Origin: Qipengyuania soli
Lineage (GTDB): Bacteria > Pseudomonadota > Alphaproteobacteria > Sphingomonadales > Sphingomonadaceae
DNA: 64,000 bases
NCBI RefSeq assembly: GCF_015529805.1
Contig: NZ_CP064654.1
Span: forward strand, 124,001-188,000
Direction of reading: 5' to 3'
The notes beneath the pieces are model-generated. The model did no database searches. It saw only the letters and a program-made list of their open reading frames with translations, and was not told the origin of the DNA. The translations under genes were made by a program, and so were the position numbers. Positions 22,144 through 63,114 of this stretch are shown piece by piece (position 1 is the stretch's first letter; every line of letters begins with the position of its first letter).

Positions 22144-22234
22144 TGGCGGAGCGGGAGGGATTCGAACCCTCGATACGGGGTTACCGTATACACACTTTCC
22201 AGGCGTGCGCCTTCGACCACTCGGCCACCGCTCC
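22144..22234 (-). tRNA. tRNA-Ser(GGA)
   Basis: A 91-base class II tRNA with an encoded CCA end. The acceptor arms GGAGCGG and CCGCTCC pair perfectly. The anticodon loop contains CTGGAAA with anticodon GGA. A long variable arm follows (ATACGG with CCGTAT), as expected for serine. The T-loop is GGTTCGAATCC. It reads UCC and UCU serine codons. Confidence 0.95.
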
Positions 22235-49257: not shown

Positions 49258-50454
49258 ATGATGCGGCTCTTTCTCACGGCTTCACTTGCCCTTCTGGCAG
49301 GCTGCGCTTCGGTGCCCAAGGCTCCTGCGTCTCCCCCACCGGCTGCGGTTGCGGTCGTCTTCGACAAGGGGAGCGTCAGACCCGTGGTGGTTGAGGGCAT
49401 GGCCGACCGTTCCACCATGCGCCCGGTCACAACCAACGATCCCGTGCGCATCGCCAGCATATCGAAGCTCGTCATGGCGCTCGCGGCCATGCGGCTGGTC
49501 GACGAAGGCAAGGTCGACCTCGACCGTGACGTTTCGGATTATCTCGGCTGGAAACTGCGCCACCCCGATTATCCCGACGTGCCGGTTACCCTCGCACAAT
49601 TGCTCTCGCACCGGTCGAGCCTGCGCGACGATGCGGGTTATGTCATACCGCTGGGCGAGAGCCTGCAGGCGAAGTTCACTGATCCCGCGGCCTGGTATCA
49701 TGGCGCACCGCCGGGAGAGGCTCCCTTCGAATATGCCAATGTCGGTTCGCCCGTGGTCGCGACGGTGCTCGAGGCGGCGAGCGGCGAGCGTTATGATCGG
49801 CTGGTCGAGCGAACGGTCTTCGCGCCGCTGGGCATCGAGGCCTGCCTCAACTGGATCGGCTGTGCGCAGGATTTCGCCGAGCGCGCGGTGGTACTGTATC
49901 GCAGCACCGGCGAGGTCGCGCGCGATGCCGCTGGGGACCGCCCGCCCAATTGCACCATTCCGGTTGTCGAAGGTACTGCGTGCAATCTCGACGACTATGT
50001 GCCGGGAACCAATGCCTCGATCTTCTCGCCTCAGGGCGGGGTGCGCATCGGGATGGTGGATCTGGCGAGACTGGGTCAGGCCATCTTGAACGAGGATTCC
50101 CGCCTGCTCGACCCACCCGGATTCGCCCGGCTCAAGCGCCCGGAATCGCCTATTGCCGGGAGCGCACCGCTGTTCTGCTTCTACGGCCTCGCCGTGCAGA
50201 CGCTCCATCCCGGGCTGGCGGGCTGCAACGACGATCTCTTCCCCGACGTCGCGCGCCGGTACGGTCACGCGGGCGAGGCCTATGGGCTGCGCTCGGGGCT
50301 GTGGATCGACCCGGAGGGCCGCCGCGGCATCGCCTATTTCGTTACCGCCGTGCCTGAGCCCGAAGTCGAGGACACCGGCGGCTTTTCCGACGAGGAACGG
50401 GCGCTCGTCGCGCGTGCCGTGGAAATTGCCTCGCGGGGCAAGGGTAGAGATTGA
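49258..50454 (+). CDS. Serine hydrolase, beta-lactamase class C-like lipoprotein
   Basis: A 398-residue protein with a lipoprotein signal (LLAGC near residue 16). Catalytic motifs of the penicillin-binding/class C fold are SISK (near residue 66), YAN (near 159) and HAG (near 337), all intact. It could be a DD-peptidase, an esterase or a D-amino-acid amidase; a true beta-lactamase is less likely. Two adjacent ATG codons (49258, 49261) are possible; the GAGG before them fits 49261 slightly better. It precedes the glycine riboswitch by about 60 bases but has no clear functional link to it. Confidence 0.85.
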   Translation: MMRLFLTASLALLAGCASVPKAPASPPPAAVAVVFDKGSVRPVVVEGMADRSTMRPVTTNDPVRIASISKLVMALAAMRLVDEGKVDLDRDVSDYLGWKLRHPDYPDVPVTLAQLLSHRSSLRDDAGYVIPLGESLQAKFTDPAAWYHGAPPGEAPFEYANVGSPVVATVLEAASGERYDRLVERTVFAPLGIEACLNWIGCAQDFAERAVVLYRSTGEVARDAAGDRPPNCTIPVVEGTACNLDDYVPGTNASIFSPQGGVRIGMVDLARLGQAILNEDSRLLDPPGFARLKRPESPIAGSAPLFCFYGLAVQTLHPGLAGCNDDLFPDVARRYGHAGEAYGLRSGLWIDPEGRRGIAYFVTAVPEPEVEDTGGFSDEERALVARAVEIASRGKGRD

Positions 50455-50516
50455 CCGTGCCGCGCTAATCGCGCAGGGCAATCGGCGTCGGCCACGGGAG
50501 CGATTCTGCGGCAGGC

Positions 50517-50709
50517 GCGCACGGGAGAGACCGGCGGGGCAACCCTCCGGCGCCGAAGGAGCAACCGCCCCGGAAACTCTCAGGCCCACGGACCGTGCGC
50601 TGCCATCGGCACTCTGGAAAGCGTCGCCATCATCGGCGGCCACCGAAGGGGTAAGCCCGCGCACCTTTGCATGAAGGTGGGGGCCAGTCTCTCAGGTTTC
50701 CCGACAGAG
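50517..50709 (+). ncRNA. Tandem glycine riboswitch
   Basis: Two glycine aptamers lie back to back before gcvT. Aptamer 1 spans 50517-50600, closed by GCGCACGG pairing with CCGTGCGC. It contains GGGAGAGACC, CCGAAGGAGCAA and GAAACTCTCAGG. Aptamer 2 spans about 50612-50709, closed by CTCTG with CAGAG, and contains CACCGAAGGGGTAAGCC and TCTCTCAGG. The family binds glycine, often with cooperation between aptamers, and usually turns on gcv genes. The expression platform is listed separately. Confidence 0.92.
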
Positions 50710-50760
50710 GGGGCATGGAAATGTTGTGCTCCGCAAGGGGCGGCCATGCTGTCGGGGAAG
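50701..50760 (+). promoter_or_regulatory. Expression platform of the glycine riboswitch (alternative hairpin over the gcvT ribosome-binding site)
   Basis: CCGACAG at 50701-50707, which is part of the 3' strand closing aptamer 2, can instead pair perfectly with CTGTCGG at 50749-50755. An inner arm GCATGG (50713-50718) pairs with CCATGC (50744-50749). The outer stem reaches the GGGGAAG (50754-50760) that precedes the TTG start at 50765. Glycine binding would hold CAGAG in the aptamer and free the ribosome-binding site. No T-run follows, so control is probably at translation. Confidence 0.6.
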
Positions 50761-50764
50761 TTTG

Positions 50765-51910
50765 TTGAGCGAAGACATCGAAATCGAAGAGCCCGAAACC
50801 GGTACGCTGCCGCTCGATGCCTGGCATCGCGACAAGGGCGCGCGCATGGTCGAGTTCGCCGGATACTGGATGCCGATCCAGTACGAAGGCATCGTGGCCG
50901 AACACGAATGGACCCGCTCCAATGCCGGCCTGTTCGATGTCAGCCACATGGGGCAGCTGCTGTTGTCCGGTCCCGATCTCGACGCGGCGGTGGAAGCCGT
51001 GTTGCCGATCGACCTGTCGACCCTGAAACTTGGCCAGCAGCGCTATTCGCTGCTGCTCGACGAAGATGGCGGCGTGCTCGACGACCTGATGGTCTCGCGC
51101 TGGCCGGAGTGCCTGTATCTCGTCGTCAACGGTGCGACCAAGTGGGACGATATCGGCCATCTGCGCGAATACCTGCCCGACGAGATCACCCTCAATCATC
51201 TCGACGAGCAGGCGCTGCTGGCGCTGCAGGGGCCCAAGGCGGCGGACGCGCTGGCGCGCCATGCGACGGGCGAATACCCGCTTTCGGCACTGACCTTCAT
51301 GAAGTTCGGCCGCTTCACCATAGCGGGCCACGAGGTGACCATCGCTCGCGCCGGCTATACCGGCGAGGACGGGTTCGAGATTTCGCTTCCCGGCCATGCA
51401 ACCGAGGAAATCGCCGACGTGCTGTGCCGCGAACCCGAAGTGAAGCCCATCGGACTTGGCGCGCGCGACAGCCTGCGCCTCGAGGCGGGCCTGCCGCTCT
51501 ACGGCCACGACCTTTCGCCCGAAACCTCGCCCATCGAAGCGGGCCTGGTGTTTGGCATCAACAAGCGCCGCCGCAGCCCCGTTGAACAGGGTGGGGGCGG
51601 CTATCCCGGTGCGACACGGATCAATCGCGAAATCGTCGAAGGCACGCTGCGCAAATGGGTCGGCCTCAAGGTCGAAGGCCGCATGCCCGCACGCGAAGGT
51701 GCCGAGGTCTTTGCCGGCGGCGAGCAGGTCGGGGTGGTGACCAGTGGCGGTTTCTCGCCAACGCTCGGTGCGCCCATCGCCATGGCCTATGTCGCCAGCG
51801 CCCATGCCGCGACAGGCACCGCGCTCGAAATCGAAGTCCGTTCGAAGCGTCTGGCGGCCACGGTCGTCCCGACACCTTTCGTCCCCCACCGCTACTACAG
51901 AGGGAAATGA
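50765..51910 (+). CDS. gcvT: Glycine cleavage system aminomethyltransferase (T protein)
   Basis: A 381-residue tetrahydrofolate-dependent enzyme that releases ammonia and the methylene group from the aminomethyl-lipoyl H protein. Conserved features are [38 protein letters not shown], the catalytic Asp region [18 protein letters not shown]-like and [13 protein letters not shown]. The TTG at 50765 is chosen because GGGGAAG lies five bases before it and the sequence matches the family from there. The frame is open to 50726. It is the first gene after the riboswitch. Confidence 0.93.
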
Positions 51911-51914
51911 TCCG

Positions 51915-52286
51915 ATGGCCCGTTACTTCACCGATGAACATGAATGGATCGACGTCGACGGCGACACTGCCACGGTCGGCATCACCGATTATGCGCAGGG
52001 CCAGCTCGGCGACATCGTCTTCGTCGAACTCCCCTCCGCCGGCACCTCGCTCAGCAAGGGCGGCGATGCGGCGGTGGTGGAAAGCGTCAAGGCGGCAAGC
52101 GACGTCTACGCCCCGATCGACGGCGAAGTGACCGAAGGCAATGCGGCGCTTGAGGACGATCCCGCTCTGGTCAACACCGCGCCCGAAGGCGATGGCTGGT
52201 TCTTCAAGATGACCATCGGCGACGCGAGCCAGCTCGACGGCCTGATGGACGAAGCCGCCTACAAATCCTTCTGCGACAGTCTCTAA
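51915..52286 (+). CDS. gcvH: Glycine cleavage system H protein
   Basis: A 123-residue lipoyl carrier protein. The lipoylated Lys is in [12 protein letters not shown] (about residue 59), and the overall length and [15 protein letters not shown] sequence fit GcvH. It shuttles the aminomethyl group between the P, T and L proteins. Four bases separate it from gcvT. No gcvL/lpd gene is in the window. Confidence 0.95.
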
Positions 52287-52322
52287 TTGATCGTCCCCGT
52301 GCCGGGGACCCGAGGACATACG

Positions 52323-53684
52323 ATGCGCTACCTGCCGCTTACCCAGGATGACCGTTCGGCGATGCTCGCCCGGATCGGTGCCAGCAATATCGACGATCTC
52401 TTCGTCGACGTGCCCGAGGAAGCCCGCCTGTCGGGCCCGATCGCGGGCCTCCCGCTGCACGCCAGCGAAATGGCGGTCGAGAAGCACATGCGGCGCCTGT
52501 CCAAGAAGAACCTCGCGGCGGCCGATGCTGCGTTTTTCCTCGGTGCGGGGGCGTACAAGCACCACGTCCCGGCGAGCGTCGATCACATCATCCAGCGCGG
52601 CGAGTTCCTGACCGCCTACACGCCCTACCAGCCGGAAATCGCGCAGGGCACGCTGCAGATGCTGTTCGAGTTCCAGAGCCAGGTAGCCCGCCTCTATGGC
52701 TGCGCGGTCGCCAATGCCTCAATGTACGACGGTTCGACCGCATGCTGGGAAGCAGTGGCGATGGCCGGGCGCGTGACCAAGCGCAAGCGCGTGGTTCTAT
52801 CGGGCGCTTTGCACCCGCACTATGCCGAGGTCGTCAAGACAATGGCGAAGTTCACCGAGGACGAGATCGCATCTGCCTCGCCCGCGCTCCAGGCCGCGCC
52901 GGATAACGCTGGCCTGATCGCGCGGATCGATGACCAGACCAGCTGCGTCGTGGTCCAGTACCCCGACATCCTCGGGCGCATTCCCGACCTCACCGAGATT
53001 GCCGAGGCGGCGCATGCCAAGGGCGCGTTGCTGATCGCGGTCAATACCGAGCCCGTCGCACTGGGCGCGATCAAGTCGCCGGGCGAGCTCGGCGCGGACA
53101 TCGTCGTGGGCGAAGGCCAGTCGATCGGCGTCGGCCTGCAGTTCGGCGGACCGTATCTCGGCCTCTTCGCGGTGCGCGATCCCAAGCATGTGCGCCAGAT
53201 GCCGGGCCGCCTGTGCGGCGAGACCGTCGATGCCGAGGGCAAGCGCGGCTTCGTGCTCACCCTCTCGACCCGCGAGCAGCACATCCGCCGCGAGAAGGCG
53301 ACATCGAACATCTGCACCAACTCGGGCCTCTGCGCCTTGGCGTTCAGCGTCCACATGACCCTGCTCGGCGAGAAGGGCTTGCGCGCGCTGGCGGCGGAGA
53401 ACCACCGCCTCGCCTGCCTCGCCGCCGACAGGCTGACAAAGATCCCGGGCGTGAGCGTGCTCAACGATGCGTTCTTCAACGAGTTCACCCTCCGTCTCGG
53501 CAAGGACGCGCGCAAGGTCGTGCGCACTCTCGCCGACAGGGGCGTCCTGGCGGGCGTCTCGCTCGGTCGCCTGTTCCCGGCGCATGACGAACTCGCCGAC
53601 GGCCTGCTCGTCGCAGTGACCGAAACCACCACCGAGGAGGACATCGAAACGCTTGCCTCCGCACTCGAGGAGGTGCTCGCATGA
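52323..53684 (+). CDS. gcvPA: Glycine dehydrogenase (decarboxylating) subunit 1
   Basis: A 453-residue subunit corresponding to the N-terminal half of the P protein. Features are [19 protein letters not shown] at the start, [24 protein letters not shown], and a C-terminal region with [11 protein letters not shown]. It lacks the PLP lysine, which is on subunit 2. GAGGA lies eight bases before the ATG. The stop overlaps the ATG of subunit 2. Confidence 0.95.
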
Positions 53685-55312
53685 ACGCGCCCCCCAAAAC
53701 CCCGAACGCATCCGGCTGGAAGCCCGGCACGCCTGTCGAAGGTCACAACGCCATGAGCGGTCCCGACACCGCCACCGGCAACCGCGCGCTGATGCTGGAA
53801 GAGCCGCTGCTGTTCGAGATCGGCCATGTCGAGCAGACCGGCGTCGACCTTCCCGAGCCTCCCAAGGATTCAGGTCGCGGCGCGAACCGCCTGGGCGGTT
53901 TCGACCGCGCCGAGGCCATCGGCCTGCCCGGTCTCTCCGAACCCGAGACCGTGCGTCACTACACGCGTCTCAGCCGCCAGAACTACGCCATCGACCTCGG
54001 CCTCTTCCCGCTCGGAAGCTGCACGATGAAGCACAACCCGCGGCTCAACGAGAAGGTCGCGCGGATGCCCGGCTTCGCCGATGTCCACCCGCTGCAGCCG
54101 GTCGACACCGTGCGCGGCGCGCTCGAGGTCATCAATGAACTGGCCTTTTGGCTGATCGAGCTGACCGGCATGTACGGAGTCGCGATGAGCCCCAAGGCGG
54201 GCGCGCATGGCGAGCTGTGCGGCATCCTGTGCATCCGCGCCGCGCTCGAAGCGCGCGGCGATGCGCGCGAGGTCATCCTCGTCCCCGAAAGTGCGCACGG
54301 CACCAACCCTGCCACCGCCGCCTTTGCGGGTTATCGCGTGGAAGACATTCCCGCGACCGCCGAAGGCCGCGTCGACCTCGAGGCGCTCAAGGCACGCCTC
54401 GGTCCCGATGTCGCCGGCGTGATGATCACCAACCCCAACACCTGCGGCTTGTTCGAGCGCGACATGAAGGCGATCTCGGACGCGGTTCATGCGGCGGGCG
54501 GCTTTGTCTATTGCGACGGTGCCAACTTCAACGCCATCGTCGGCAAGGTGCGCCCGGGCGACCTTGGCGTCGATGCGATGCACATCAACCTGCACAAGAC
54601 CTTCTCCACCCCGCACGGCGGCGGCGGTCCGGGTTCGGGACCGGTGGTGCTGTCGGAAGCGCTCGCGCCGTTCGGTCCGCTGCCCTTCACCGCGAGGACC
54701 AAGGACGGCATCGTGCACCTCGTCGAGGAAGAGAACGCGGCCGAGTTCGACCACACTCAGGCCTTCGGCCGCATGACGGCCTTCCACGGGCAGATGGGCA
54801 TGTTCACCCGCGCGCTGACCTACATCCTCAGCCACGGCGCCGATGGCCTCAAGCAGGTGGCCGAGGACGCGGTCCTCAATGCCAATTACATCCTTCGCAG
54901 CCTGGAGGACGTGCTCGACGCGCCCTTCGGGCCGAGCGGGCCGTGCATGCACGAGGCGCTGTTCAGCGATAAGGGTTTTGCGGAAGGGCTCTCGACGCTC
55001 GATCTCGCCAAGGGGCTGATCGACGAAGGCTATCACCCGATGACCATGTACTTCCCGCTGGTCGTGCATGGCGCGATGCTGGTCGAACCGACCGAGACCG
55101 AGAGCAAGGCCGCGCTCGACCAGTTCATCGGTGCCCTGCGCAGCGTCGCAGAGCGGGCAGTCAACGGCGACGAAACGCTCAAGACCGCGCCGCATTACGC
55201 CCCGCGCCGCCGTCTCGACGAGACGCTGGCGGCAAGGAAGCCGGTGCTCGCCTGGCAGGAGCCCAATCCACCTTCCGGATCGCCGAGTTTGAGCGAGCAG
55301 GGCGGGCGTTGA
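53681..55312 (+). CDS. gcvPB: Glycine dehydrogenase (decarboxylating) subunit 2
   Basis: A 543-residue PLP-dependent subunit. The PLP lysine is in [17 protein letters not shown] (about residue 306). The stretch [15 protein letters not shown] and the glycine-rich region confirm the family. The N-terminal 20-25 residues (rich in Pro, Lys, Thr) extend beyond the common start. With subunit 1 it decarboxylates glycine and loads the H protein. Coupled to subunit 1 by a four-base overlap; the next gene begins 16 bases later. Confidence 0.95.
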
Positions 55313-63040: not shown

Positions 63041-63114
63041 GCGGGTATGATGTAATGGTAGCCTGTCAGCTTCCCATGCTGAACGCGCGGGTTCGATTCC
63101 CGCTACCCGCTCCA
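63041..63114 (+). tRNA. tRNA-Gly(CCC)
   Basis: A 74-base tRNA with encoded CCA. The acceptor arms GCGGGTA and TACCCGC pair perfectly. The anticodon arm CAGC-TTCCCAT-GCTG gives anticodon CCC. The T-loop GGTTCGATTCC is standard and the discriminator base is T. It reads GGG glycine codons. Confidence 0.95.

Follow-up and report, generated by a model that had tools for sequence, protein, structure and literature searches.

A probable translational ON switch in the tandem glycine riboswitch upstream of gcvT in Qipengyuania soli

Upstream of the glycine cleavage genes of Qipengyuania soli, within a 64,000-nucleotide (nt) stretch of DNA (hereafter the window, whose coordinates are used throughout, on the + strand unless stated otherwise), we characterised a tandem glycine riboswitch that is very probably a translational ON switch controlling the gcvT-gcvH-gcvPA-gcvPB operon lying directly downstream of its two aptamers. 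The parts of this switch, their complementarity, the mutual exclusion of the two pairings and their conservation in relatives were established by computation, and from these we infer glycine binding, the direction of switching and the effect on translation. When glycine is absent, aptamer 2 would use UUUCCCGACAG, at its P1/joining edge, to pair with CUGUCGGGGAA immediately before gcvT, on top of a small inner hairpin. The resulting OFF helix would hide the gcvT Shine-Dalgarno (SD) sequence and keep the genes off, aptamer 2 losing its P1 only while P2 and P3 remain folded. Glycine binding would then stabilise aptamer 2 P1, which needs C705-A706-G707 (50705-50707) of the switching strand, so that the helix would open and ribosomes could start at the TTG at 50765.

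Two aptamers and an alternative helix over the Shine-Dalgarno sequence

Both aptamers are complete, as an earlier note made from the sequence had claimed. In an Rfam search, RF00504 matched the + strand twice over model positions 1-94 of 94, at 50512-50605 for aptamer 1 (61.6 bits) and at 50606-50717 for aptamer 2, which has an enlarged P3 arm (46.3 bits, or 51.6 bits over 50604-50717). Adjacent to each other, above the gathering score of 32 and 5' of a glycine metabolism gene, the two aptamers constitute a tandem glycine riboswitch, and the pair is unique in the genome (2.9 Mb, scanned as a whole). A candidate kink-turn between leader and linker (GGCA 50510-50513 with UGCC 50601-50604) was also seen, by eye only.

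Aptamer 2 P1, as aligned to the Rfam model, consists of CUCUG (50612-50616) and its ON-state partner CAGAG (50705-50709), plus one further pair. The perfect complementarity of CCGACAG (50701-50707) to CTGTCGG (50749-50755), already pointed out in the earlier note, proved longer than described, as UUUCCCGACAG (50697-50707) and CUGUCGGGGAA (50749-50759) form 11 pairs, one of them G-U, with a duplex energy of -17.9 kcal/mol. The first of these strands, assigned by pairing and covariation as the switching strand and as the anti-Shine-Dalgarno of the OFF state, comprises J3/1 and the three bases with which the 3' strand of P1 begins. CCGACAG therefore belongs to aptamer 2 as had been stated, although not as its last bases, since the aptamer continues to about 50712-50717. 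Because both need 50705-50707, which make 3 of the 5 consecutive P1 pairs, the alternative helix and aptamer 2 P1 are mutually exclusive, and the pairing is indeed an alternative to the aptamer stem, as had been proposed. The sequestering strand, delineated by pairing, shuffles and folding, includes the gcvT SD read from the sequence, GGGGA (50754-50758), which lies 6 nt 5' of the TTG and has nearly all its bases paired in the free fold. One helix thus holds the whole SD and excludes an aptamer helix, as in a translational ON riboswitch. Between its two strands, an inner platform hairpin is able to sit, formed by CAUGG (50714-50718) and CCAUG (50744-50748) and recognised from the sequence and from own-versus-foreign pairing in relatives.

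Free folds of 50606-50790 and of 50495-50790 both formed the alternative helix and kept P2 and P3 of aptamer 2. In these ligand-free computations, the two pairs tested in the helix had probabilities of at least 0.995, with the SD 0-14% unpaired. Whole folds gave 9.8 expected pairs between the two strands in the window versus 0.2 in shuffles, and the pairing stood at z -4.9 relative to shuffled leaders. Forcing aptamer 2 P1 cost 5.9-8.5 kcal/mol and, in two segments starting at aptamer 2, left SD bases 50756-50758 80-98% unpaired. Two of the folding results weigh against the proposed switch: in the full leader, forced P1 freed the SD only partly (11-55% unpaired), and the whole leader did not fold to a lower energy than its shuffles did (z -0.93 and 0.21). 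The energy model is blind to glycine, tertiary contacts and co-transcriptional P1 folding, so that the cost of P1 means only that the switch must draw on ligand energy or on co-transcriptional order.

These results also bear on two other explanations of the locus. It is unlikely that the switch operates at the level of transcription, with the OFF hairpin or the untranslated state ending the transcript through Rho and SD hiding not being the main step. The available part of PMC13104608 does describe translational riboswitches whose untranslated mRNA is lost in a Rho-dependent manner, but a search of 50300-50900 returned no intrinsic terminator (0 found), no T run follows the OFF hairpin on its 3' side, and across the family the helix sits on the SD. 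Quite improbable, in turn, is a real complementarity that merely builds a glycine-independent SD-masking stem fixing a low gcvT level. Calculated stability favours the OFF over the forced ON state by 5.9-8.5 kcal/mol, which might exceed what glycine overturns at equilibrium; however, the masking stem takes exactly the strand needed by aptamer 2 P1, before an operon that degrades the ligand, and the model behind this value includes neither tertiary contacts nor the co-transcriptional folding of P1. The translation-type switch in which glycine frees the SD, as anticipated in the earlier note, is thus supported as the best reading by a helix that covers the SD and excludes P1, by the terminator search and by conservation across the family.

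Conservation and covariation of the pairing in the family

RF00504 riboswitches were detected in 130 of the 149 genomes of the family, 8 of the 130 being left out of the locus set. From 123 loci and the window, four without a downstream gcvT (L032, L136, L181 and L188) were dropped, leaving 120 gcvT loci from 79 genera. We consider it fairly likely that the family of the window shares a fast-evolving translational platform. In it, aptamer 2 would lend its joining strand and P1 edge as anti-Shine-Dalgarno and keep P2 and P3 folded, and the versions CCGACAG, CCUGACAG, CCGUGACAG and others would each have a matched partner. If true, the platform amounts to a single switch that evolution has rewired into a series of natural versions.

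Across the 120 loci, the switching strands ended in CCGTGACAG (44 loci), CCCGACAG (40), AAGTGACAG (8), TCCGACAG (6), CCTGACAG (5), TCGTGACAG (3) or other sequences (14), and the partner strands (CTGTCGGGGAA, CTGTCACGGAG, CTGTCAGGGA and CTGTTGCCGGG) tracked the version of the switching strand. For instance, the pairing energy of CCCGACAG strands was -12.8 kcal/mol with own-type leaders versus -8.2 kcal/mol with leaders of CCGTGACAG loci. By ensemble folding, the switching strand shares 5 or more expected pairs with the 26 nt that immediately precede the start in 88/120 loci, representing 66 of the 79 genera, compared with 5.2% of shuffled leaders. A duplex of -10 kcal/mol or lower at the SD was found in 70/120 loci, versus 7.1% of shuffles and 22.2% of other-type leaders from other genera, and at least 7 contiguous pairs in 61/120 loci versus 17.5% of foreign combinations.

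The earlier note had called for a check of covariance in relatives, and two columns of the pairing do covary. Among the 78 of 120 loci that could be anchored, only on the invariant GACA, the column at -1 before GACAG was paired in 59 loci (permutation mean 50.7) and the column at -2 in 57 (permutation mean 35.6), counts reached by 0/5000 permutations in either case and a result unchanged with one locus per genus (n=57). Two-sided changes concerned 21 loci at column -1 and 29 at column -2. The inner hairpin, tested in 69/120 loci from 51 genera, varies in relatives while keeping its pairing, as judged from these sequences (-10.59 kcal/mol with its own partner versus -8.40 kcal/mol with permuted ones, z -6.4). 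Compensating changes are thus present at two columns and in the inner hairpin, though the changes counted on the tree are few: over the rows used here, the S1 -2 state changed 10 times, and independent pairs on the GcvT tree, where they differed, mostly went in the expected direction (2.3 versus 0.0 and 0.5 versus 0.1, from few events).

Several results weigh against the proposed switch or limit its reach. The usable rows of the GcvT tree contain no more than 5 and 7 changes of type, too few for significance, and columns -3 and -4 displayed no excess pairing in the same test of 78 loci. The strict measure of 7 contiguous pairs was missed by 59/120 loci, the energy-plus-position test by 50/120, and the folding test by 32/120, including L151 (0.06 expected pairs) and L137, the nearest relative of the window (1.7), in which complementarity is kept but the free fold favours other structures. 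In addition, the switching strand contains UUCC, which can pair with any SD; this inflates the positional counts and makes other-type leaders the fair control. The simple duplex z relative to shuffled leaders was only moderate family-wide (median -1.6; 44% below -2). By the same measure, 30 tandem loci from outside Sphingomonadales were near zero (median z -0.2; 5/30 below -2, three of these five carrying TAAAGCGGACAG strands), versus 8/26 named sphingomonad-type loci below -2, in a comparison from which 24/80 loci that gave no core were left out. The platform is therefore not general.

Start codons and gcv genes

The operon begins with gcvT (50765-51910, 381 aa, NF010093 4.3e-155), followed by gcvH (51912-52286, NF002270 2.1e-49), gcvPA (52287-53684, NF001696 6.5e-186), whose open reading frame (ORF) is listed from a TTG at 52287 with a true start possibly further in, and gcvPB (53681-55312, NF003346 1.3e-205). 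The TTG start proposed for gcvT (50765-50767) holds, as it aligns with the homologous ATG of the close relatives L137 and L154, whose GcvT are 92% and 87% identical. Start codons in the 120 loci, picked by our own scoring rule and not by annotation, comprised 20 TTG (16/79 genera) and 18 GTG. On the chromosome of Novosphingobium PP1Y, 4.4% of starts are TTG, according to the available part of PMC4059872, and this codon may thus be enriched among gcvT starts of the family; riboswitch-less gcvT genes numbered only five, too few for a comparison of TTG use. As a control element, TTG was rejected: mean helix energies were -11.7 kcal/mol for TTG loci versus -11.4 kcal/mol for ATG loci (p = 0.77), showing no link to helix strength, and the tighter control that the earlier note had attributed to this codon was a guess that finds no support.

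Coupling of gcvT to the translation of a leader ORF (ATG 50715 or 50721 to TGA 50766-50768, its SD being placed in the 3' strand of P1) that overlaps the TTG in the window, L137 and L154 is hardly credible and was rejected, because leader ATGs of the 120 loci show no frame preference (15/18/16 in frames 0/1/2) and hence no conserved single-frame small ORF, the leader ATG lies within the stem of the inner hairpin, and the NTGAGC start accounts for the overlap with gcvT.

GcvT of the window is 92% identical to that of G116, from another genus, and only 61% identical to those of G078 and G146, from its own genus, whereas MetH is 89-90% identical to its counterparts in the latter two; judging by these identities, gcvT therefore appears to have been replaced in these congeners. 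A second tandem glycine riboswitch precedes an L-serine ammonia-lyase gene in G046 (L181) and G114 (L188), and in G144 (L032) and G076 (L136), which belong to one genus, a tandem glycine riboswitch stands before a D-amino acid dehydrogenase-like gene and not before gcvT. Most of the 19 family genomes without RF00504 are also without gcvT: near-full-length GcvT matches occurred in only 5/19, with no glycine riboswitch match near these five genes, and another, G056, has a contig-edge piece of GcvT. Elsewhere in the window are a tRNA-Gly (CCC) at 63041-63114 and, on the - strand, a tRNA-Ser (GGA) at 22144-22234.

Comparison with known glycine riboswitches

The gcvT tandem glycine riboswitch of Bacillus subtilis is an ON switch. 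With that riboswitch, as described in the available part of PMC5666159, the locus of the window shares tandem aptamers and a gcvT operon, and differs from it in that no intrinsic terminator was found here. Proteobacteria favour translational platforms, according to the available parts of PMC6944388 and PMC12452182. A worked-out translational platform is known for few glycine riboswitches. For sphingomonads, a literature search conducted mostly without subscription papers returned no glycine riboswitch mechanism, only a count, namely the one glycine riboswitch listed for the genome of Novosphingobium sp. PP1Y, given without mechanism in the available part of PMC4059872. While leaving the general picture of glycine riboswitches unchanged, our results provide a precise, testable model for a group previously represented by a count alone in the literature searched, together with natural matched variants usable for studying how aptamer 2 communicates with the ribosome site.

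The type of mechanism is already demonstrated in Neisseria gonorrhoeae gcvT, for which the available part of a 2026 study (PMC13104608) reports a mutant-supported translational tandem glycine ON riboswitch. There as here, tandem RF00504 aptamers precede gcvT in an ON switch, with about 60 nt from aptamer 2 to the start, and in the absence of glycine the region where gcvT translation starts is paired with aptamer 2 bases, a pairing that is predicted in our case. N. gonorrhoeae uses bases of aptamer 2 P3a, P3 and P1, including the binding-pocket CTCAGG, whereas in our computations the pairing is confined to the joining strand and the beginning of the 3' strand of P1, P2 and P3 staying folded. 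The former switch is backed by mutants and the latter by computation, and what is new here is the sphingomonad-type member of this mechanism.
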